Below are positions 1 to 22,879 of a stretch of DNA of 42,608 bases, in pieces. The DNA comes from an uncultured bacterium (GTDB taxonomy: Bacteria > Patescibacteriota > Gracilibacteria > Absconditabacterales > Absconditicoccaceae), in the NCBI GenBank assembly GCA_946611795.1, contig CAMOEC010000068.1, forward strand, positions 1 to 42,608, in the 5' to 3' direction. Made by a program: the position numbers and the translations under genes. Under the pieces are notes generated by a model. The model saw only the letters and a list, made by a program, of their open reading frames with translations. It was not told where the DNA came from and searched no databases. The stretch's first letter is position 1. Every line of letters begins with the position of its first letter.

Positions 1-3000
1 AGCCGAAGAAAATGCTATTAATGAGTGAGCTTGAACATGATTATTACAAGAATTGAATAAAAGAAATGCCTTAGATTTTTGATTCTTCTGACATGAGAAT
101 TTTTCTCTTGAGGAATTATGATTATTAAATTTAAATAAGATCCCTTGATTAGATGAGAGTGATGATATAAGAGCTGGTATTGAAAATGCTATAGTGCGTT
201 CGATTAAATATGAGTTTTCTCATGGTTTAGATAATGAAATTGCTCGTAAATTTAATGATACTGTTAAATATCATAATACCACACTTTCAGAGCTTTTAGC
301 GACAATAAATTTGTTTGAAAATCAATTAAATTGAGAAGATAAGTGAAAGTATTTAAAGTTTAGAAATAACTTTGTTTTAACTTTTTTGCAGATTAAGAAT
401 AATCTTGCTCCTATTAATGATGCTTCAAATAATAATATTAATGAGAATCTAAATACAAAATCTTTTTCTGATTGGACTGAGAGTCAACAGAAGTGATTTG
501 ATTATCTCTTTAGTAAGCTAATTCTTTCAAGGTTACATTCTAGAGTTGAATGAATCTCTACAATGGCAGAAGATATTACTAATTCTTTTTCTTTGCCATT
601 ATCAATGAGTGTTATTCCACAATCTCAAGAATATAGTATTGGGGAAAATGGATATGAAAGTTTAAAAGAATATGCTAAAGATAATTTCCCTGAATTGTAT
701 GAAGAACTTCAGAATGCAACAGAAGAAAACTTAGAAGAAGTTTATTGGAAAATATATTTAAACAAAATAAATCAAACAGATTCAGCTATGGCTGATGCTT
801 TATGAGTTCTTTATGAAAATAATTTTGATGTTGCTTGTTTAAATAATGATCCTGCAAAAAGAGACGTATTCATCTCTAAATTGGCTGAATTGAGATTAAA
901 AGGAATGGAGGAGAGTTGAGCTATTGAAGCTTTTGGTAATGATACAGAACAATTTAAACGTTTTTTCTTAGATCTTTTTGATTTTTCTAAGAATGAAGTT
1001 ATTGTTAATTGAATGACTTTACATATTGACAAGGAGTTAAAATGAGGAGTTGTTAATCCTGATTTGAAGAACTTATCTGATTTTATGAATGCAAAGGATT
1101 TACCTATTAAGTTTTCAGTTAAGTGAGTAGATAGTTTAAATCTTTCAATGGATGACCAACAATTATTTAATAAATTATTTCAATGAGATTTTGTTGATGT
1201 TGCTGAGACTAATCCTGATTGAACTCCATGAACTGTACATAAAGATCTTGTGTTAGAAGATTCAAAAATATGAAAGTTTCTTATTTTCTATTTAATGTGA
1301 AATCCTTCAGTTATTGAAAGTTATAATCCTGAATCAGAACAAGGAAAAAAGTTAAATAATTTTTTCAGATCTTTAGATAGAGATATTGCTATTGATAAGA
1401 GTAAACGTGAACTTTCTGAAGATGAAAAAAGACATGATGAAGATTGAGAAAATCCTGAAGATGAAGAAGAAAATAGAGAGGAATGAGAATCTATAAAAGA
1501 AAAAATATTAGGACTATGGAATGGGTTAAAAGGTGATGAAGCAAGAGAGGGAGAAGAATCGTTTAAAGAATGAGCTATATTATATTATCCTTTTTGAGAA
1601 TCAGTACTTCCTCCTAAAGGTGATTCTTCTAAAGATTGGATGAAACTCTATATAAAAGATGTTGATTGGGACAGATGAATGATAAAAATGAGGAGTAATG
1701 GTGTTGAATTGGAACTTCCTTGAGGATGGGAGAATAAAGATATTGAAATGCCATTAACTGTTTTTTCAAAACGTTTTTTGGAAGGCTCTCCTGATGTTTG
1801 AGGAGCTCCTTTTAAACAGCTTACAAGAAAATCTAATTTAGAAGAAGCTTTTAAAGGATTCTCAAAACAAGGACTTTGTAAGGATAGTATTTTATGAGAT
1901 GCTAGCTTTGAAGATTGAAAGTTAATGCTTAGAACAAGATGAATGGATTGAAAAGAGCATAATGAAGAGGTTAAGTATTTCAGCTCTTGATTAAATGTCC
2001 CTGATGATAGTAAAGTTGTTTATGGTGTTAATTGGAATTCTGATGGTACAGTAACTGTTAAATCGAGTTCTTTTGTATCTGATGGAAAGCCTTATGAATA
2101 TAAAAGGAAGATGTCATATCCTGATTTTTTACTCTTTTTAAGCGAAAAACAGCTTTCACCAAGGACTGAGCGTATGGCTGAAGATGAAAAAGTTAGAATT
2201 AAGGATGTTGTTTCACACACAACAACTAAGATAAAATGGATGACAATTTGATGATTAATTTATTCATTTAAGAATATTTGGAAAACATTAAATGATTGAA
2301 TTGATAATTATCAAAAAAAACAGAATCAAGAATGTTTGGATTGGCTTGTTAGTAAATGAATTTATGATAAAATTTGAAAATGGTTTTGATGGGCTTCTCC
2401 GTCTTTAGCTGAAGCTGCAATGCAAGCACAAGATAAGGCAGAAAAATGAATGGATAAAGCTACTTGGGAAGGAATTGATGCTTGGTTAAAAGAGTTCTCT
2501 AGTTTGGCTGATTTTGCTAATTTCTTTGAAAAGTGAGTTGATGCTCCAAGTTGACAGAAATTTAGGGAGCTTAATAAGATTTTAAAAGCGAATGGATTTA
2601 AGACATTAAAGGATGTTGTTTCATCATGAACATTTGTTTGAGAAAATGATAAGTTAAGACCAATTATAGCTGCTGCTATGATTGCTAATATTAAGAAATG
2701 AGCATGATTATATCGTTGATTAGCTAATCAAGATAATCAATGTTTATGGATTAGATGTTTGTTATGACCTGCTCATTATAGAAGATATCTTGAAATGAGG
2801 AGAAAACTTGAGAATGATATTAAGCAAGCCGAACTTAATAAAGATTGAGGTAAAGTAAAACAGTTAAGTGATCTTTTAGTTCAATCTGAAACAACATATA
2901 TTATTAACTGTATAGAAAATTCTCATGGAAAGGATGAGTATTTTTGAGCTCCTAGTGATAACAATACACAAGCTTTAAAATTGTTATATTCTAATGAATT

Positions 3001-4459
3001 TGCATCTCAATTAGGTAGTGCTGTAGATGAAGGAATAGGAGAAGCTGCAGTTGATAAAGGTTATTCATGAACAAAGAAATATAATCTATTTGATCCTGTT
3101 TTTAAGGAAGTTGAAAAGAATATTACTTCTTGAAGAATTGATAGATGATTATGAAATATTGAAAGGTTATGAGAGGTTGCTGTTAATGATTCAGATTTTG
3201 TTAATTTGAATGTTGCGATGACTTTTGTGACTTTGACATGAATCTTGAATAGAAAAGAAGGTAAGAATATTAGAACGAGATTTGATGGTTTAGCAAGAGC
3301 GTATATGCTTCCAACTGCATTCTTTTGAGAGAAAAATGAGAATCAAAGGAATGCTTGGTATATTTTGGAGAAGTCGTGATGTTGATTCTCAGAATTTATG
3401 GCTTCTAAATGACTTTCTATGGAACAATTCATGTCTACATCAGATGATGTTCCTTATAAGCAGTTGTTTTGAGCATTAAAGGAATGGTGGGTTAAAAATT
3501 CTAAGCAAATAGATACCTATTTTGAATCATTAAAGATTAATGAACAAAAAGATCCTATTTTGAAAAAGGTTAGGGATATTCTTTGGGAGACTAATCCAGA
3601 TTCAATCAGTCCAAAATGGAGATCAAAACCAAAGATTACATGACATTATGCATTGTTAGCTTCTCCAGAATCTATCCGTCAGAATAAGGGTTATGATAGA
3701 GATTGATTCTCTTGAGATACTGATGAAAGAAATGATAAGGCAGCATTCTGGGAGAGTTTATTAAAATCATTAAAAAGAGCTCCAGAAGATGTTGATCCTA
3801 AATTTTTCTTAAAAGAATTTAAATTGCTTTTCAATTATGAAGGATTTTGAACAGGTAATGATGCTGAAAATAATATGATGATAAAAATGATAAAAGATGT
3901 TAAAGAACGTGCTTGAGAGCCAATAGTTTTCCATGTGCCTCAATGATGAGGAATGATTGATATACCTTCAAGATTTGTTTATTCAAAAGATGATTATAAA
4001 CATTTGATTTGGTATATGTTTAAATGACGTGTGTTGTATAATAATTGAAGATCTGCACCACCTAAACAGGTTGATGATGTGTTGAATTTTTTTGTAAATT
4101 ATTTTACAAGAAATTTTGATAGAATTGCATGAGATGATGCTTTGTTAAATGATGTATTCCCAATGGCAGAAAAATTACCTGAAAGAAGGTTAGTACCTTG
4201 GTGAGAATATCAAGATAATATTCAATGAGATAATAATTATTTTGATTTAGGATCTGATTCTGATGAAGCAGATATTGATTCAAAAGATCTTGAAAAACAG
4301 AGGAAAGCGATGAGAAATAGAAAGAAAAAGTATTATAGAAGAAGTGATTTATTTTATAATGATGAATTACTTCAATTGCAAAAAGGTTTGAAGAGAATAG
4401 GTGTCTCAGCTAAATCTTTGGCTGAACTTGGTTGAGAAAGATGAGTAGAAATTAATTAA
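1..4459 (+). CDS. Giant soluble protein of unknown function, 3' portion (5' end outside window)
   Basis: I do not recognise this protein. Reading frame 2 is open from the left edge to a TAA at 4457-4459, giving at least 1,485 residues, with very many in-frame TGA (Gly) codons. The start lies upstream of the window. It is rich in Asp/Glu/Lys and looks mostly helical. I see no signal peptide in the visible part and no clear run of transmembrane helices, apart from one short hydrophobic stretch near 2240-2275. An acidic, low-complexity patch (repeated Glu/Asp) lies around 1400-1500. Trp and Tyr are frequent. No nucleotide-binding or catalytic motif was recognised. It converges on the uvrB C-terminal half with only two bases between the stop codons. 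Proteins this large in reduced CPR genomes are often surface or host-interaction proteins, but nothing here proves export. Confidence 0.85.
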
Positions 4460-4461
4460 GA

Positions 4462-5241
4462 TTATTCTCAAGATATTTCTTTGATTTGGTCGCGGATTAC
4501 TGCGGCTTTTTCAAATTCCCAAGCTTTAATTGCTTCGTCTAATTGGATTTTTAAGTCTTTTAAAATTATAGCTTTTTCAGCTTTGGTGGCTTTCTTTAAT
4601 TTTTTAGTTTTATTTTCTTGTGTTATTTTTCAGAAAGATTGTTCAAGATCAAGGTCTGTTTTAACGGTTTCTAATGATTTTACATTTGAAGAAGCAAGCT
4701 TTGGAGTGATTCCATGTTCTTTATTAAATTTATCTTGGATGTTACGACGACGATAGGTTTCCCAAAGTGCTTTAATCATTGATTCTGTGAAAGCATCAGC
4801 ATAGAGGATTACTTCACTATTTGGGTTCCTGGCAGCACGTCAGATAATTTGAACTAGAGAAGTAGTTGATCTTAGGAATCATTCTTTATCAGCATCTAAT
4901 ACTCAGATTAATGTTACTTCTGGGAGGTCTATTCATTCTCTAAGAAGATTTACTCATACAATGATATCGATTTCTCAAGTTCTTAGTTTTTTTATTATTT
5001 CCCAACGGTCTATTGCTGCGATTTCACTATGAAGATAGAATGCTTTGAAACCTTGAGATATTAGAAAACTTGTTACTTCTTCTGAAGATTTTTTTGTTAA
5101 TGTAATAAGAAGAATCTTTCATCATTTAGAGATATGTAGTTTTATCCTTTCTAAGAGATGTTCCAAAAATGCTGGATGCTTTTCAGCAACAGCTTCTTTA
5201 TTATCAGTTTGTAGATAGGTATCAATAAGTGATTTAACCAT
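4462..5241 (-). CDS. uvrB: UvrB C-terminal half: second helicase domain and UVR domain (split excinuclease subunit B)
   Basis: This encodes about 259 aa that match only the C-terminal part of UvrB, the damage-verifying helicase of nucleotide excision repair. In order are a motif IV region ([14 protein letters not shown]), motif V (VGVNLLREGIDLPEV), the DADKEGFLRS segment, motif VI (QIIGRAARN), the YAD element, the RRRNIQ...HGITP segment and a C-terminal UVR domain ([11 protein letters not shown]), which in the family binds UvrC. Several invariant Gly residues in motifs V and VI are TGA. Walker A, DESH and the beta-hairpin are absent here; they are in the ORF at 21266-22879. The ATG at 5241 is the first start, but the frame stays open about 20 codons upstream, so a non-ATG start is possible. 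About 30 residues before motif IV look non-homologous and could be a docking segment. An intact UvrB is about 670 aa. Confidence 0.9.
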
Positions 5242-5472: not shown

Positions 5473-6642
5473 ATGAAGCATAATAAACTTTGATTGTTAT
5501 TTTTAGGAAGATTAGAAACTGAAAAAGGTTTTGATTTGATTTTTGATTTTATCAATCAATATCCAAATAAAGAGCTTCCATTTGAACTATATATTTTTTG
5601 AACATGAAGTTATGAAGAATGAATAATGGAGTTATCTCATCGTTTTAAAGAGATTCATTTTTTTTGATGGAAGCCATTGTCTGTTGTAGAAAGGTATTTA
5701 GAGAATATAGATTATTGTCTTATGCCTTCTAGATTCTTAGAAACTTTTTGATTAAGCGCTATTAATGTTTTAAAGTGGGGTATTCCTGTAGTTTGATTTA
5801 AAAAATGAGGGCTAGTTCCTTTTATCCCTGATGAGTATGCAATAGATAAATGTAAATGAAGTACAGAATTTTCTCAGTTTTCTGAAATGTTATTAAAATT
5901 AGAAAAAGAAAGGAAAGATAATGATTTTCATTTTTATGAGAAATTGGCAGAAAAATCAAAGTGAATAGCATTGAGATATACTAAAGATAGATGGTATGAG
6001 AGGTTTCAGAAATTAACTTTTGATTTTAAAGTAAAAAAAGTCGTACTTGTTAGTGATTTTATTAATAAAGTTTGATGAATAGAAACTTATATTCATGATG
6101 TAAAAGCGTTATTAGAAAGTCATTGATATGAAGTTGTTCTTTATTGAAGTACTTGTCCTAAGTGATTTTTATGAAAGATTAAAAAACTATTTGGTATTTG
6201 ATTATGATGTTTTAATCTTTATGAAGCAATAAAGTTTTATTCTTTTATTAAAAGAGAAAAACCTGATTTAATATGGTATAATAGTATGTTGCGTTGGTTA
6301 TGATGGATGCCTTTATGGATGAGTAGAAATATAAAAGCAAAAAGGTGGATGATGTATCATGATTTTTGATATTTTGTTCCTTATCCACATGCTTTATATG
6401 AAACTAAGGGAATTGACGAATTGTCGTTGAAGAATTATTTAAAACATGCAAATACTAAAAATCCTTTAAAGTGTTTGTTGATAATGTGAAAATATTTTTC
6501 TTTGAAGCTTTTAGTCTCTTCATTGAAGAAGCAAATAGATTTGCATTTAGTGCCTTCTGAGTTTATGGTTCCTATTGTTTCAAAGAGTTTTTGAATTGAT
6601 GAAGATAAGGTAAAGTATTTCAATCATTTTCTTCAGGATTAG
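5473..6642 (+). CDS. GT-B (GT4-like) glycosyltransferase with circularly permuted domain order
   Basis: This is a 389-aa protein. Residues 1 to about 190 look like the C-terminal nucleotide-sugar-binding domain of a GT4 enzyme: LLFLGRLETEKGFDLI at the very start (normally the inter-domain junction), then FGTGSYEE, then the EX7E-like region PSRFLETFGLSAINVLKWG, where the second Glu is Asn, and a GGLVPFI loop. From about residue 195 the acceptor domain that normally comes first appears: KVVLVSDFINKVGGIETYI, with the Gly-Gly loop of GT4 enzymes, then HGYEVVLYG, a YHDFGYF segment and LVPSEFMVPIV, stopping where the linker to the C-domain normally begins. So the two Rossmann domains are both present in swapped order. 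It probably transfers a sugar during surface glycan synthesis, in line with the pyruvyl transferase at 7379. The start ATG is chosen because it immediately precedes the first beta-strand. Confidence 0.85.
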
Positions 6643-6644
6643 TT

Positions 6645-6677
6645 AAAAAACTAGCACCATAAATAATGATGCTAGTT
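6645..6677 (-). terminator. Rho-independent terminator for the 6683-7228 gene
   Basis: A 10-bp stem (6651-6660 with 6666-6675, one G-U wobble when read on the minus strand) is followed on that strand by six T residues. It sits just past the stop codon of the minus-strand gene. Confidence 0.7.
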
Positions 6678-6682
6678 GTCCG

Positions 6683-7228
6683 TTATTGAAGAAGTAATTC
6701 TTCAAGAGCTTCGATTTCTTCAGAGAGTTTTATTTTCTCTGAAGCATCTTCAGTTAACTCTATTTCTATTTCTTTAATCTCTTTTTTGAGTTTGAGTTTC
6801 TTTTTCTCTGAGCATGGAATAGAAGAAAGTTTGATTTCATTTATTCTTTTTTTTGCTTCGAGTTTATCTTTTTCATTAGAAGAGATTCCGAGACCTAAGT
6901 ATTCTATCATTATGCCATATTTGGCTTTTTTGATTTTGTCTTTTTCTCGTTGTTTCTTGTGGATTAATCTAGGGATGAGCTTTTGCTCGATGATGAATTC
7001 ATAGTAGAGAGAGCTTTTCTGGTTCCGGACGGCTATCATTAATATTACAAATGAAACCAGCGTTGAAAACAAAATTACTATCCAGAACGAACTCACAATC
7101 CCTGTTAACGTCTTTAAAATTGAACGTTCAAGACTGAAATAGATTAGAGCGAATGCTAGTGCTCCCATGGATGATCCAAGCATCTTCCAGAGGAGCTCTT
7201 TTTCATAGAATTTGTAAATTTTAACCAT
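6683..7228 (-). CDS. Small membrane protein with C-terminal coiled coil; codon use unlike its neighbours
   Basis: This 181-aa protein is not recognised. Two predicted transmembrane helices (about residues 17-34 and 45-66) are followed by a long, highly charged Lys/Glu helical region (about 75-181) with heptad-like Leu/Ile spacing, probably a cytoplasmic coiled coil. Its stop is TAA. Unlike most neighbours it has no TGA codon. Its Gly codons include GGC, GGG, GGT and GGA, and CGG, GTC and GCC codons appear, which are scarce elsewhere in the window. This could reflect recent acquisition from a standard-code organism, or minus-strand base skew plus chance. It sits between two envelope-glycan genes on the other strand and has its own promoter and terminator. 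Confidence 0.85.
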   Translation of the reverse strand: MVKIYKFYEKELLWKMLGSSMGALAFALIYFSLERSILKTLTGIVSSFWIVILFSTLVSFVILMIAVRNQKSSLYYEFIIEQKLIPRLIHKKQREKDKIKKAKYGIMIEYLGLGISSNEKDKLEAKKRINEIKLSSIPCSEKKKLKLKKEIKEIEIELTEDASEKIKLSEEIEALEELLLQ

Positions 7229-7261: not shown

Positions 7262-7290
7262 CTTTTATCCATTTTGATAAGAGAAGTCAA
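7262..7290 (-). promoter_or_regulatory. Putative promoter for the 6683-7228 gene
   Basis: On the minus strand TTGACT is followed after 17 bp by TAAAAG, about 35 bp upstream of the ATG at 7228. Confidence 0.4.
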
Positions 7291-7311
7291 TGTTAAGTGA
7301 ATTCTTTTTTG

Positions 7312-7339
7312 TTGTAATTTCTGATTCGTTTACTATAAT
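7312..7339 (+). promoter_or_regulatory. Sigma-70-type promoter for the pyruvyl transferase gene
   Basis: TTGTAA and a perfect TATAAT are separated by 16 bp, with the start codon 40 bp downstream of the -10 box. Confidence 0.6.
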
Positions 7340-7378
7340 TTATTTGAGATATGCTGTCTTTATTCTTATTTCTTTTTC

Positions 7379-8383
7379 ATGGAAAGAATGGAATTAGAGA
7401 AAACTCTCCCAATTGAGGGGAATAAAGTATTGATTATGGGAAATTGGTCCTATAAGAATATGGGAGATGAACTTATTTTGCTATGAACAATTCGTTTGTT
7501 GCAAAAACAGTGAAAAGAGGTGGTAGTTTCTGCATATGATGTAAAACGGCTTAAATCTTTCTTTTCTCAATTTACTGATTTAAAGCCAATAACTTATTTA
7601 CATGAGTTTCCGAAATGAATACGTTCTTTTTTTAGGTATTTTTTTACTAAAATAAGAAGGGAATTGAAAGTATACAGATCTGTTGATAGCGTTATTATAT
7701 GATGAGGGGAAATTTTAACAGAAGAGAGTCCAAATTCTTATCGATATTGGCTTGTTTGATTGTTACCTTTTTTTCCAAAATTGGATAAGATTAATGTTTA
7801 TTTAATGTGAGGAATTCAAATACCTGAGAAGAAATTCAATATTTGGTTGTTTGATTATTTATTATCAAAAGTGAAGGCTATTTATGCTCGCGATAATGAA
7901 TCAGTAGAAGCACTTACTGAATATTGATATAAAAATGCTCAGTTTTTTCTAGATACTAGTTGGTTTGCATATTCATGGTGACGAATTAAAAGAGAAATTG
8001 AACATAGTAAGGTAGCGTTAATAAATTTGAATAAGAATTGAGAAAAGTTTTTTGATGATTTAGTTCTTCAATGTGAATCTTTATTATCTAATGGATATAC
8101 AATAAAGTATGTACCTGTGAGTAAGGGAAATAATAGAGTTTATAATGATTTGTATTATAAAGAAGTATTAGAAAAAAGATTGATGACAAAATTTGAAGTT
8201 TTAGATTGGGAAGAGAGTTTTTCTTCTTTTGTTCAGGAGGTTAAAAATGCGGATATCGTTGTAACTGCGAGATTGCATTTATTTTTGGTAGCAAGTTTTT
8301 TGTGAGTTGAGACAAAAGTGTATCCTTATCAGATGAAAATTTTGAAGATGAAAAAGATAATTCAGGAGTTCTTTGAAGAGTAG
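7379..8383 (+). CDS. Polysaccharide pyruvyl transferase family protein (CsaB-like)
   Basis: This 334-aa protein resembles the polysaccharide pyruvyl transferase family (PF04230), whose members add pyruvate ketals to cell-surface sugars. It opens with a Rossmann-like strand and the family's N-terminal signature MGNWSYKNMGDELIL. A glycine-rich VIIGGGEIL follows at mid N-domain, then MGGIQIP, the YARDNESVEAL segment and, near the C-terminus, NADIVVTARLHLFLVASFLG, which matches the conserved 'R(L/M)H' region of the C-terminal domain. The first ATG at 7379 is used; a second in-frame ATG lies three codons later. With the permuted glycosyltransferase at 5473 it suggests a surface-glycan decoration locus. 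In CsaB systems pyruvylated glycans anchor S-layer proteins, but no S-layer protein was recognised here. Confidence 0.8.
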
Positions 8384-8481: not shown

Positions 8482-8510
8482 TTGATATTAAAGAGTGAAG
8501 ATTCTTTAAT
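8482..8510 (+). promoter_or_regulatory. Putative promoter for the tandem membrane-protein pair
   Basis: TTGATA is followed after 17 bp by TTTAAT, 17 bp before the ATG at 8527. The surrounding 8384-8526 gap is otherwise AT-rich DNA with no RNA gene recognised. Confidence 0.4.
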
Positions 8511-8526
8511 TTATTGAAAATTCATT

Positions 8527-10941
8527 ATGATATCTAGTGTAATATCATTTCTAAAAAAACAAGTAAAACAAAAAAAGAAATTATTGTTAAAGTCATTGTT
8601 TATCTTATTGTTATGATTTTCTTTTATGCCTCAACAGACCTATTTTTCTGTTAATGAGGTTTATGCTGCAGGTACAGAAAAAGACAATGATGAGGTTCAA
8701 AAACAGAGAGAAGCGCTTTCTTCTTTAGATACTTTTATGCAGGCTGTTTCAGATATTGCTTTTGCTTTACTTTGGCCACTTGTTGCATTGGCTGGTTTGG
8801 CAATGGATAATACTTTGATTTATGGCTCTTTTATGTGACTTGATGTTTCATTATGGAATATTTGGCAAATAGTAAGAAGTTTCGCAAATTATACGTTATG
8901 ATTTTTGCTTTTAATTTGAGTGTTACGATATAATTTGTCGTGAAAGGATTCTATTAGTGGTATAAAATTGCCAGATTTGTTAAAGAAAGTATTGATTGCT
9001 AGTGTTCTGATTCAAGCAAGTTGGTTTATAATGATGGTATTGGTTGATCTTTCAACAATTATGACATATGGTGTTGGATGACTTCCTATTTCTGTTTTGT
9101 GAGAAAAAACTCTTTGATCTTGAGATGATTCAAGAATGTTTAAAATGAATGTTGATTTGAGTTTATGAGATTATGATTCTAAGATAGAATGACAATGAGA
9201 TAGTGCTGGTGCAATAAAATATTATTGGCATGTAACATGATCAACTTATGTAGCTCCATGTAAAACAGTTGACGTTGATTTTTGATGAAATGATGGTAAG
9301 CAAGCATTTGTTATTGGTAGAGAATTTATTGAACTTCCATGAACAGATGGTAAAACTAGTTATACAATGAAGCCGTGATATTGTATGTATTATTGAGCTT
9401 TGGTGACTTTTAATGATTTTTATCCAAATCAAGGTTGATCATCAGGGGATACTTATTGAACAGCATTAAGTACTTTTAGTAAATTAATTGAAGATACCAA
9501 TAATGATGCTGCTAAGAAGCTTGTTGATGCTGGGATTATTTTCCCTATATCAACTTGAAAAATTCCATATTTATCTGGGAATAAAGCCACTTTTAACCCA
9601 GTTGAATTGTCTTGAAAGAATGGTGATAAATTAACATATTGAAATAAAACTGCATGTAATCAATGAATTTGAATTGTATCTGCTAGAAAAGATCTAAAAA
9701 CCAAAAAATGGAATTGTCTTTATGGCGAAACAGATATTACTTTTTCTAATCTTTTAAAGAAGGCTAATTCTATGACATGACCATTCGCGGCTTTATATTC
9801 AAGTTTGTCTGTTTATTCAAATCTTCAAGTAGATGGTAAATGATTGTGGCAGAAATTTGTAATAACTTTTGTAAACGTTTGTTTTTCTGCCTTACTTGTT
9901 CTTCCTTTGGTAGCGTTAGTTGTTGTTTTGTTTACGAGAATTTGATTACTTTGGCTTGCTATAGCACTTTCTCCATTTTTGGTTCTAGTAAAAGTCTTTA
10001 GTGGTATGATAAAATTACCTTGAGATCTTGATAAATATCTTAATTTTGGTGAACTAATTAAATTATTGTTAGCTCCTGTTTTAATTAGTTTTGCTGTTTG
10101 AATGTCTATGATTTTTATGTCTGTATTAAAAAATTCTGTTTGAGTTTGACCTGATGAATCAGCTTATTTAGATAAGAATAATACAAAAGAATTTTATAAA
10201 AATTTTGAAAATATTTCGTGAATTAAGGTTTCATGAACTGATTTAGATTTATTATGATTTATTAAATTAAAACTTGATTCAACAATGATAAATCTTTCAT
10301 GGATGATATCAATGTTCTTTTGATTGTGAATAACATGGTTTTTGCTATTTCGGGCTATTAAGCAAACAGCTATTTGAAAAAATATTTGAACAACATTGCA
10401 AAATTTATGAGAAACTTTTATAAAAACAACTCCGATTATACCTGTAGGTAAGAATTGATTATCTTTGAAATGATTAGAAAATGCTCCTGAACAGATATTT
10501 AGCAAAATTTCAGATGATAGAACTGATGCTGATTGAAAAAGATTACAATCTCTTTTGGATATAGGTAAAGATGATTATGAAAAGATGTGAAGTCGTTTTG
10601 TAAGAAGCAAAACTATTTCCTTTAATGATGCATTTGAAATACAGGATAAAGATTATTGAGATACTGATAAAATGATTAAAAGATTGGATGGCGTTTATCG
10701 TTCTGAAGTATGGTGAAATAGGGCAGATGAGATTGCAGGAGTTTATAAATCTATGTTGTCAAATGCTCAGTCAAAGGATAGTGCTAATAAAATTATTGAT
10801 CATTTGAATGAAAAGTGAGATTCAAAGATAAATGTTAATTGAGAAAAATTCAAAGTTTGAGATACTGAATATACTGTTTGAATGTGAAAAGATTGAAAAT
10901 ATGTTTTACAAGGTGGATGAGATACTGATGCTGCTAAATAG
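8527..10941 (+). CDS. Polytopic membrane protein with signal peptide, first of a tandem paralogous pair (possibly VirB6/TrbL-like)
   Basis: This 804-aa protein starts with a strongly basic N-region and hydrophobic core (residues about 18-34), with a plausible signal-peptidase site at EVYAAG (about residue 46). Hydrophobic helices follow at about 70-92, 120-137 and 155-178, then a large loop (about 190-435) containing a few Cys residues. A second membrane cluster with very hydrophobic helices spans about 450-540 and 590-610, and a charged C-terminal tail ends the protein. The arrangement resembles VirB6/TrbL-type channel components of type IV secretion and conjugation systems, but I cannot see a diagnostic motif, so that role is a guess. 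The next gene at 10955, 13 bp downstream, is a paralogue: both carry NTLIYG-x-FM and QASWF-(3)-MVLVDLSTI. They are very likely co-transcribed and may form one membrane complex. Confidence 0.85.
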
Positions 10942-10954
10942 TCTAAAACAGTCA

Positions 10955-12949
10955 ATGTATTTAAAAATGTGAATTATCATTGTTATGGTAATGTTTTTCT
11001 CATTCCATCCTACTTTTGCTGATAGTTGTAGTTGATCAGTTGATGAAACGTTAACAATGATAAATGAATTATTCAAAAATTTATGAAGACTTTTTTCTTG
11101 GATATGGATAATACTTTGAAATTTTGCATGAGTTTTGATGACAAATACTTTGATATATTGAGAGTTTATGAATCTTGATTCATCCCTTCGAAATGTTCGG
11201 CAACTTACAAGAAGTATTGCTAATTATGCACTTTGATTTATTTTTATCTATAATATCTTTAAATATATTTTTTCTCATGGAGAAAAGGTGCCAATTGATA
11301 CAATAAAGCAAATATTGTTTGCTTCTGTGCTTGTCCAAGCAAGTTGGTTTTTTGTAATGGTTCTCGTTGATTTGTCAACAATAGGACTTGCAACGGTTTC
11401 CTCTTTCCCTGCTCAAGTGATGGTTTCAAGTCCAGATATGATGGAAACAATGAAACAACAAATTTGAATGAGTAGATTTTTGAATGATAAAAAGGTTGTT
11501 GTTATTAATGCTTTCTCTGACCAGTATTTGTCATGAGATAATACAAAATGGTTTGTGGTTGATCATGTAGAAGATCCAAATTCTGTTGATCCCAAAAAAG
11601 AAACAATAGATGCTTTATTACCAAGTCCTTCAAATTTGTGATGATCGTTTATGTATCTTTGATTTACAGCATTAAAAGCACAAAATTATGTTACTAGTCC
11701 TGCTCCTTCTTCTGCTTCATGTGTAGCAAAAACGGAAAAAGTAATAACGAATTTGATTCTAAATTCATGATTGTTAATAATATATTCTTTGGCATTGGTA
11801 CTTTTGATAGTATTATTGGTTATGAGATTATGATATTTATGGGTTTTTATTGCTATCAGTCCAATTATTATTGTTCTATATTTTATAAAAGATATAAAAT
11901 TTAAAGCATCTGATGATATTTTTGATTTGAAAAAGGCAATCTTTTTGATATTTCAACCTGTTCTTTTCGCTTTTTGGATATCAATTATGTTTTTGGTTGT
12001 TTTGATGGTTCAAAAAGTTTTTAGTCAATCAATTACAACAAATTTATCTTGATGAGTTACGGTTTCTAATGGTAGTAATTCTTCAACAGATAAGGATGCA
12101 CTTCCCAAAGTTTCTTCTGTTCTAGAAAATGCATGAATTGTTACTTTTCATATGAGAGAATGAGCTAAATCAATGAAGGATATAGTATTAGCTTTAATAA
12201 CATTGATTTTAATGTGGCAGTTAGTTAAATTAGCATTGACTTGAACAGTATCATGATTTAATGGTAATTCATCTTTGGCTAAAAGAATGGATAAGCTTGT
12301 TAGAAATACTTGAAAATTGTTTTGACAAGTTGGGATTGTCCCTACTCCTACATGAATGATGTGATTTAATCAGGTTTGGGATTGAGAAACAAGTAAACTT
12401 TGGAATTGAGCTGTTTGACGTTTGGAATCCAGTATGCTAAAAAGAGATAAATCAACGGATACAATTAATGAATTGATGTGATGGACTAATTCAACTGTTA
12501 TAAAGTCTTTGAGTTTTACACAAAAACAATCTTTGGAAAGAGCTTCTACATTATCTGGAAAATTGCCAAGTCATTTTGTAAAAGAACTAGAAAATGTGAA
12601 AAAAGACAATTTGTGATTGACGTATTCTGAAATCAAACCATATATTAATAATTGGTTGGATTTATATCGTTCCGCTTGAGTGAATAGTGATGAATATAAA
12701 CAAATGAATTCTTATTTTTGATGAGATGCAGCAAAAAATATTTGGTGAAATATAACGAGTAAATATAATGATAAAGAAAAAATGGATATTGATGCAATTT
12801 TGCAGGATATTGAAGTTATATGATCCGGATGATTTTCTTCATTTTATAAAAATGTTTTTTGAAGCACGGAAAATGTTCCAACTTCATATGAAGATTTTAA
12901 AAATAAAGGACAGAAAATTGTTTATAAATCTACATCAGAAAGTTCATAG
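10955..12949 (+). CDS. Polytopic membrane protein, second of the tandem paralogous pair
   Basis: This 664-aa protein has an N-terminal signal-like segment (residues about 5-21, ending FADSCSG) and helices at about 42-60, 90-105 and 120-145. A soluble loop follows, then two membrane clusters around residues 265-300 and 325-355, one more helix near 415-430, and a long soluble C-terminal tail. It shares with the preceding protein the NTLIYGEFMNLD motif, the ANYALGF helix and QASWFFVMVLVDLSTI, so the two arose by duplication and then diverged. Gly is mostly TGA. The function is unknown; a secretion- or conjugation-channel role (VirB6/TrbL-like) is only an inference from topology. Its last 20 bases overlap the 3' end of glyA on the opposite strand. 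Confidence 0.85.
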
Positions 12950-21247: not shown

Positions 21248-21282
21248 AAACTCTGAATAATTTTTCTATTCAGAGTTTTTTT
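21248..21282 (+). terminator. Rho-independent terminator between convergent genes
   Basis: CTCTGAAT (21251-21258) pairs with ATTCAGAG (21268-21275), extended by A/T pairs and followed by a T run. The uvrB N-half stop codon lies inside the hairpin, so it may also end minus-strand transcripts. Confidence 0.85.
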
Positions 21283-22879
21283 CTTCTTCAGCTCAAAATA
21301 TTTCTTCTAGATTCAATTTATGTTGTTGTTCTGAAGATTTTTCTTCAGATTTCATAAATTCGTTAAGATAAGGCTTCTTGCTAAGAAGTTTTGGTAGAGA
21401 ATCGAGCAATATTGAATAATCTCAAGATTTTGGATACACAAAGGTAACTGGATCAAGAAGTCCTGTTGGTCTAATAATTTGTTCTACAACTTCGTCAGAA
21501 AGGTCTAATTCATATTCTGCAGGTGTCGCAGAAAGAAAGATAGATTTAACATTCTTCTTTGTTTTACGAGAGAGTGTTTCTTGCTGATTATTCTTTCTTG
21601 CTTCATGATTTATGAGAGAAGAGTTTTTATCTTCTTTTTTTCATTCATTTACAACTTGTTTATGAACGGTTGATACTAAGTCTAAATCTGCAGCAGCTTC
21701 ATCCAGTTTTATTTCATTTATATCTTTCCATTGGAGTGTTGCTTCTAGTTCTTCAAACCTTAGAGGTCTATGATCTATGGCTGAAGGTAGGCGGAATCAG
21801 TAGCGGATTAGGTTGTTTTTTCTAGCTCTATCTCATTGAGCCATTGCTCTTAATTGAGGAATAGTCATATGAGATTCATCTATGATAAGAAGGAAATCAT
21901 CAGGGAAATAATCAAAGATTGTGTTTGGTGGTTCTCAAGGTAATCTTTTGTCAAAGTATAGTGAGTAATTTTCAATTCAGTTAACAAATCCTGTTTCTCT
22001 AATCATTCTTATATCATATTCTACCTTTTTTTTGATTCTCTCTGCTTCAACAAGCATTCAGAGTTTTTCAAATTCTTTGATACGTAATTCTTTTTCTGTA
22101 TTAATCTGCTGGAGAATGAGCTCTAAATCTGAAGTGTCTTGTAGATATTGTGTAGCAGGCCAAAGCATTGCTTTTTGAACAGGTCATATTAGTTCATAAC
22201 TAAGAGAATCCCTTTGTTCTATTCTTTCGATTGTGTCTTCATCAAAAAAACAACGATATAAACATTTTTCAGTTGAAGAAAAGATATCAAGAATGTCTCA
22301 TTTCATTTCAAACATTCAAGCTTCAATTTTTCAATGAATTGGTTTATATTGCATGTGAAGTAGTTGTCTTTTTATTTCATTGAAATCATATTTTTTACCA
22401 ACATATAGTTGGAGACAGTTTTCTTCAAAAAATCTACTTTGTCAAAGTCCGTATAGAGAAGAGGCAGATGCTACAACTATTACATCTTTTCTACTTAATA
22501 GTGAAGCCATTGTTGCAAGTCTATACATTTCAATCTCTTGATTAACAGTTGCTTCTTTTTCAATATATGTTCATGAACTAGGAAGATAACTTTCTGGTTG
22601 ATAATAATCAAAGTATGAAATGAAATAGTGGACGGCGTTTTCTGGGAAAAATGCTTTAAATTCTGTAGCAAGTTGTGCTGCTAATGTTTTGTTATGAGAA
22701 ATAACAAGTGTTGGTTTTTGAACTTCTTTTATGATATTAGCAATTGTAAATGTTTTACCTGTTCCAGTTGCTCAAAGAAGAGTGATTTTATTTTTTCATT
22801 TAGAAAAACTATCAGCGATTTGTTTGATAGCTTTTGGTTGATCTCATGCTGGTTGGTAACTGGATTGTAGATTGAACAT
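21266..22879 (-). CDS. uvrB: UvrB N-terminal half: first helicase domain, damage-binding domains (split excinuclease subunit B)
   Basis: This 537-aa protein begins exactly like UvrB ([17 protein letters not shown]) with Walker A LLGATGTGKT (Lys42). The LAAQLATEF segment follows, then the damage-verifying beta-hairpin ([20 protein letters not shown]), the SASSLYGLG region, DESH (Asp334), [10 protein letters not shown] (motif III) and [15 protein letters not shown]. It stops with a real TAG about 30 residues later, after a charged tail. Motifs IV-VI and the UVR domain are missing and lie in 4462-5241. Between the QLRAMAQGDRARK region and motif III is a charged insertion of about 40 residues. 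The two ORFs divide UvrB at the boundary between its two RecA-like domains. The 152-aa gene upstream (22904-23362) is likely co-transcribed. Confidence 0.95.

Follow-up and report, generated by a model that had tools for sequence, protein, structure and literature searches.

Can the two halves of a GT4 glycosyltransferase exchange places along the chain and still make up one enzyme? This question was raised by a gene in the window analyzed here, a stretch of 42,608 nucleotides from an uncultured bacterium of the Absconditicoccaceae (contig CAMOEC010000068.1), which represents a single contig of a draft genome of 1.31 Mb. Glycosyltransferases most commonly adopt one of two folds, of which GT-B is one, and to our knowledge GT4 enzymes have been described with one domain order only. 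An earlier note on this DNA, made from the sequence alone, proposed that the gene encodes a circularly permuted GT-B enzyme. The gene becomes visible only with the appropriate genetic code: with translation table 11, long ORFs were almost absent from the window and none corresponded to the gene, whereas with code 25 the window was filled by genes, indicating that this genome reads TGA as glycine. Under code 25, an ORF starting with ATG spans exactly the interval listed in Table 1, is preceded by an in-frame stop codon and contains 22 TGA codons read as glycine.

Table 1. Coordinates, strand and supporting evidence of the features of the glycosyltransferase locus within the window.
Feature	Position	Strand	Details and evidence
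Permuted GT4 glycosyltransferase gene	5473..6642	+	389 aa, code 25 (TGA=Gly), stop TAG 6640-6642
Donor (nucleotide-sugar) half, residues 1-182	5473..6018	+	PF13692/PF00534; Z 18.9 to GlgA 2bis_A 234..417; secondary structure to helix 171-182
GRLETEKG motif, residues 12-19	5506..5529	+	Sequence; R13 in 63/64 and K18 in 64/64 of the family
EX7E motif, residues 90-98	5740..5766	+	E90 kept, second position Asn
New junction, residues 183-188	6019..6036	+	Secondary structure of the AF2 model
Acceptor half, residues 189-389	6037..6639	+	PF13439; separate AF2 model; VIA Z 10.8-13.2 to GT4 N-halves
KVGGIETY acceptor-domain loop, residues 199-206	6067..6090	+	Sequence
His296-Asp297	6358..6363	+	H296 in 66/66 of the family
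Inverted repeat between convergent genes	6649..6677		1 found vs 0.6 expected in shuffles

The order of the Pfam matches is the reverse of the usual one. The donor half, equivalent to the C-terminal half of a canonical GT4, comes first and was matched by Glyco_trans_1_4 (PF13692, residues 8-117, E 1e-13, 52.2 bits with a cut-off of 27) and Glycos_transf_1 (PF00534, residues 6-144, 50.6 bits with a cut-off of 26.4). The acceptor half, equivalent to the canonical N-terminal half, follows and was matched by Glyco_transf_4 (PF13439, residues 200-381, E 1.8e-8, 35.0 bits with a cut-off of 28.5). Among 40 aligned members of the family, the GT4 C-half models matched all 40 and the Glyco_transf_4 N-half model 35. 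The protein thus belongs to GT4 by its profiles and departs from the N-half-then-C-half order, which is the customary GT4 arrangement and not a criterion of homology; it is a permuted variant of GT4 rather than an ordinary member. Pfam models of the MurG-EpsEF type (Glyco_tran_28_C and the Alg14 family) had no match in the protein, the GT4 models matching instead. Since all NCBIfam matches were GT4 models below cut-off and confined to the C-half, no specific function name is assigned.

When a profile of 40 homologues was compared with PDB sequences, residues 253-426 of GlgA paired with profile positions 3-176, and GlgA 16-42 paired at the expected place with positions 193-219, the latter pairing not being significant by itself. 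Some matches in this search were titled as receptors and were set aside, the match running through their glycogen synthase fusion partner.

The predicted structure agrees with this order. AF2 modeled the full protein from the family alignment as two alpha/beta domains (pLDDT 93, pTM 0.89), and VIA-align matched residues 1-174 to positions 234..417 of the glycogen synthase GlgA of P. abyssi (2bis_A; Z 18.9, rmsd 2.5, 164 aligned). Because the comparison of the whole model reported mainly these residues, the acceptor half (residues 186-389) was modeled alone (pLDDT 90). It matched the N-terminal halves of 7qsg (-1..212; Z 13.2, rmsd 2.8, 153 aligned), MshA (3c4q 1..199; Z 12.2), PimA (2gej 1..169; Z 11.7) and GlgA itself (2bis_A -1..221; Z 10.8, rmsd 3.3, 161 aligned). 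Within one template, GlgA, each half is therefore covered once, and the cut falls in the linker between positions 221 and 234, about 12 residues long. The donor half's C-terminal helix (171-182) is connected to the first acceptor strand (189-196) by a junction of about six residues in the AF2 model. Hence, each part of the fold is present once, the old termini are joined and the new termini lie at the inter-domain linker, as in a circular permutant. The fold is GT-B, with two Rossmann-like domains predicted to form one cleft, and the pTM value supports their packing. The earlier note had placed the nucleotide-sugar half before the acceptor half and both termini within the usual linker, and had called for structure prediction against GT4 folds; Pfam order and fold matches bear out both placements, and the prediction yielded one confident two-domain model with complete halves resembling those of solved GT4 enzymes. 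As a separate observation, the homologues in genomes G044 and G039 (L048:4640-5908 and L051:3831-5111) carry a low-complexity insert of about 30-40 residues exactly at the half-half junction.

The residues expected of an active site are nearly invariant within the family. R13 and K18 of the GRLETEKG motif are taken here to be the donor phosphate contacts of GT4 enzymes, and His296-Asp297 presumably corresponds to the active-site His that PimA-type GT4 enzymes conserve in their N-half. The protein thus carries GRxxxxKG, the first Glu of EX7E and the N-half His, and has Asn98 in place of the second Glu, just as the earlier note had read it. While E90 is kept in 65/65 family sequences, position 98 varies (E 29, N 19, T 8, D 7, I 1, S 1), with Glu retained in the more distant members. 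The second Glu is common in GT4 and is not known to be strictly required. The variation across the family indicates that Asn98 is a feature of a clade and not by itself the sign of a dead enzyme. Judging from the kept residues, the protein is predicted to be an active enzyme that acts with retention, as GT4 enzymes do.

To evaluate the prevalence of the reversed order, several genome collections were searched. Within 118 related genomes, colinear homologues over residues 6-389 were found in most genomes of the same family, and a search of genome contigs gave 12 loci, including one in the complete SR1 genome CP006913.1. When a profile was run across the class (353 genomes), 69 genomes had a match, namely 45 of the 49 genomes of the host's family (f1), 23/27 of a second family (f22) and one genome of a third (f25). 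The donor-first (C-N) order was present in 41 of the 49 f1 genomes (41 of the 45 with a match), in nearly all f22 matches and in the f25 genome. The 41 include two genomes with an incomplete single ORF, one running off the contig end (G003) and one lacking its first residues through an apparent frameshift (G032). All fetched f22 members had the C-N order, the reading frame being interrupted in G122 by one in-frame TAG and in G144 by an apparent frameshift that leaves two overlapping frames; for G126, G128 and G143 the order was judged from the matched span only. The order also occurs in the single-contig genomes G007, G011 and G027. With full-length colinear homologues in dozens of independent genomes, it is far beyond chance. 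A search of viral contigs returned no relatives of the permuted glycosyltransferase, and a phylum-wide draw of 380 genomes at E 1e-28 matched the window's own genome only, the strict profile and threshold leaving room for distant relatives.

A few genomes of the collection depart from this pattern, all of them drafts, so that single cases may represent assembly errors or stray contigs. In G006, the C-half and N-half are encoded by adjacent genes in C-N order, in different frames and 10 bases apart, and in G012 the two half genes lie on different contigs, the N-half having no ATG near its start. Only an N-half was found in G017. G021 encodes one protein of 412 aa in canonical N-C order, and G179 holds a C-half that shares 52% identity with its G021 counterpart; it is cut by the contig start and has no N-half after it, as would fit the N-C order. 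G021 and its neighbours also share a longer loop after FGxG, comprising 33-141 residues, whereas the remaining members have 15-21 and canonical GT4s 16-35.

Trees were calculated for each half together with 27 canonical GT4s. The family formed one clade apart from these in both the N-half and the C-half tree (SH-aLRT 99 and 100, respectively), and the concatenated halves supported the clade with 100/100. One clade per half indicates that the association of the halves predates the divergence of f1 and f22. Neither half tree resolved which canonical GT4s are sister to the half, and for this reason the trees do not separate one ancestral GT4 from two paralogues. The best trees nested G021 within the family (SH-aLRT 96; 87/95 in the concatenated tree), and a position outside all other members was not rejected by the AU test (p 0.22). 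Its canonical order is probably secondary, that is, a return from the reversed order, as tree position and loop length favour. A constraint that united the C-N members to the exclusion of all others was strongly rejected, which says little on order because the grouping omits split members that plainly nest among the C-N forms.

In the mechanism proposed, the donor-binding Rossmann half would be translated first, and its C-terminal helix, which in a canonical GT4 crosses back to the acceptor half, would lead through some six residues into acceptor strand 1, with the protein starting and ending at the usual N-to-C linker. Both halves are predicted to fold as an ordinary GT-B pair, which would allow the usual retaining GT4 reaction with a nucleotide sugar as donor; in the cleft, R13, K18 and E90 of the first half would meet H296 of the second. 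The most likely origin of the reversed order is either a tandem duplication with trimming or a split into two genes that were then rejoined in reverse; as the split members show, each half can be encoded by a gene of its own. The split and canonical-order relatives together suggest the fission and refusion route. More tentatively, half order may be evolutionarily free, an ancestral reversed fusion having been re-split in G006 and G012 and rejoined in canonical order in G021 and probably in G179; we regard this as quite possible but would not rely on it.

We consider it very probable that the protein represents a natural circular permutant of a GT4-type GT-B glycosyltransferase. A chimera, made of the C-half of one GT4 fused to the N-half of a different neighbouring GT4, is an unlikely alternative that would draw on the frequent tandem arrangement of GT4 genes and on the half trees, in which the canonical sister of each half was not resolved, so that their origins may differ. 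Against it, both halves are complete and cut within the linker at both ends, each carries its own share of the active site, the split pairs hold exactly one of each half, and in one relative a single chain carries these two halves in the canonical order. The earlier note's distinction between a true permutation and a fusion of two truncated enzymes stands as far as the completeness of the halves is concerned.

Misjoining of two gene fragments during assembly or binning would be conceivable in a set consisting mostly of metagenome-assembled drafts with breaks in a few members (G122, G144, G032), but the same order recurs in dozens of separate assemblies, including the single-contig genomes and CP006913.1, and we give this explanation practically no weight. 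The recurrence of the order in two bacterial families, for which the earlier note had suggested looking in related genomes, likewise refutes a misassembled pair of neighbouring genes. A degenerate, inactive remnant might be read from Asn at residue 98 and from the D, T, N, S or I that many relatives have there; it appears very unlikely, given that nearly every member, even across long branches, has retained E90, R13, K18 and H296, that distant members keep E98 and that the family is present in nearly all genomes of the host's bacterial family.

The genes on both sides of the glycosyltransferase gene (4462-5241 and 6683-7228) lie on the minus strand, leaving it isolated; 231 bp precede it and a hairpin follows it. 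On the plus strand, the inverted repeat is a hairpin only; on the minus strand it has a T-run tail and would serve the 6683-7228 gene as a terminator-like element. Across genomes, the neighbours vary, with housekeeping genes predominating (trmD-like, a TP_methylase gene, ruvB, tyrS and secF); O-antigen ligase-like and undecaprenyl-phosphate translocase-like genes also occur nearby, and in the window so does a gene for a polysaccharide pyruvyl transferase. These neighbours hint at envelope glycan synthesis, which would be our guess for the role of the enzyme in this reduced-genome bacterium. The pyruvyl transferase gene (7274-8383, +; PF04230, E 7.6e-24) is the second gene downstream and is also kept in the sister genome G001, as are two large plus-strand ORFs (8482-10941 and 10832-12949; 819 and 705 aa, with a 110-base overlap), neither of which had a significant Pfam match. 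A 1468-aa protein at 53-4459 (+), with 72 TGA-encoded glycine codons, had no Pfam match either. UvrB is encoded in the window by two minus-strand genes about 16 kb apart, one for the N-half (21266-22879, 537 aa, TIGR00631 positions 2-383) and one for the C-half (4462-5241, 259 aa, positions 427-657). The parts lie in separate ORFs in G001, G007, G011 and G027 as well, and in a single 662-aa ORF in G107 (f22); this cut falls between the two helicase domains and therefore at a domain boundary, as in the glycosyltransferase.

A permuted GT4 that is lineage-wide and has split and canonical relatives would allow the route of a permutation to be traced in nature, and the two related families of ultra-small bacteria would hold a natural record of an enzyme cut and rejoined. 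Free half order, if true, would mean that a single enzyme family has, by fission and fusion, gone through a complete natural cycle of permutation. Such an enzyme would also test how far domain closure and catalysis depend on the inter-domain linker, and it could serve as a natural template when glycosyltransferases are to be split or permuted. Annotation based on domain order can miss or misname enzymes of this kind, the more so in code-25 genomes.

A search of the open-access literature found no description of a permuted GT4, in line with the earlier note, which knew of no well-described GT4 with this order. Compared to canonical GT4 enzymes (GlgA, MshA, PimA and BshA), the permuted form shares the Rossmann halves, GRxxxxKG, the first EX7E Glu and the H-D positions; it differs in the order of the halves, the relocated covalent link and the second EX7E Glu, which is relaxed in part of the family. 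KpsC (GT107) and WbbB (GT99) also have a rearranged GT-B architecture and were considered as precedents; they were dismissed as such, their halves being displaced by inserted helices, with no permuted order described (PMC10148158, PMC9587256). A reversed GT-B order is nevertheless not unprecedented. The closest known parallel belongs to a different GT-B family: Alg13-Alg14 fusions with reversed order occur in Entamoeba histolytica and Dictyostelium discoideum, and the Alg13-Alg14 family shows split, canonical-order fused and reverse-fused forms (eLife 2022;11:e67448, PMC8993221). Like the permuted GT4, the reverse fusions are two-domain GT-B proteins with the donor half before the acceptor half. 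Alg13-Alg14, however, is eukaryotic and of MurG/EpsEF type, with the inverted order reported for Amoebozoa, whereas in the permuted GT4 the reversed form dominates two bacterial families.
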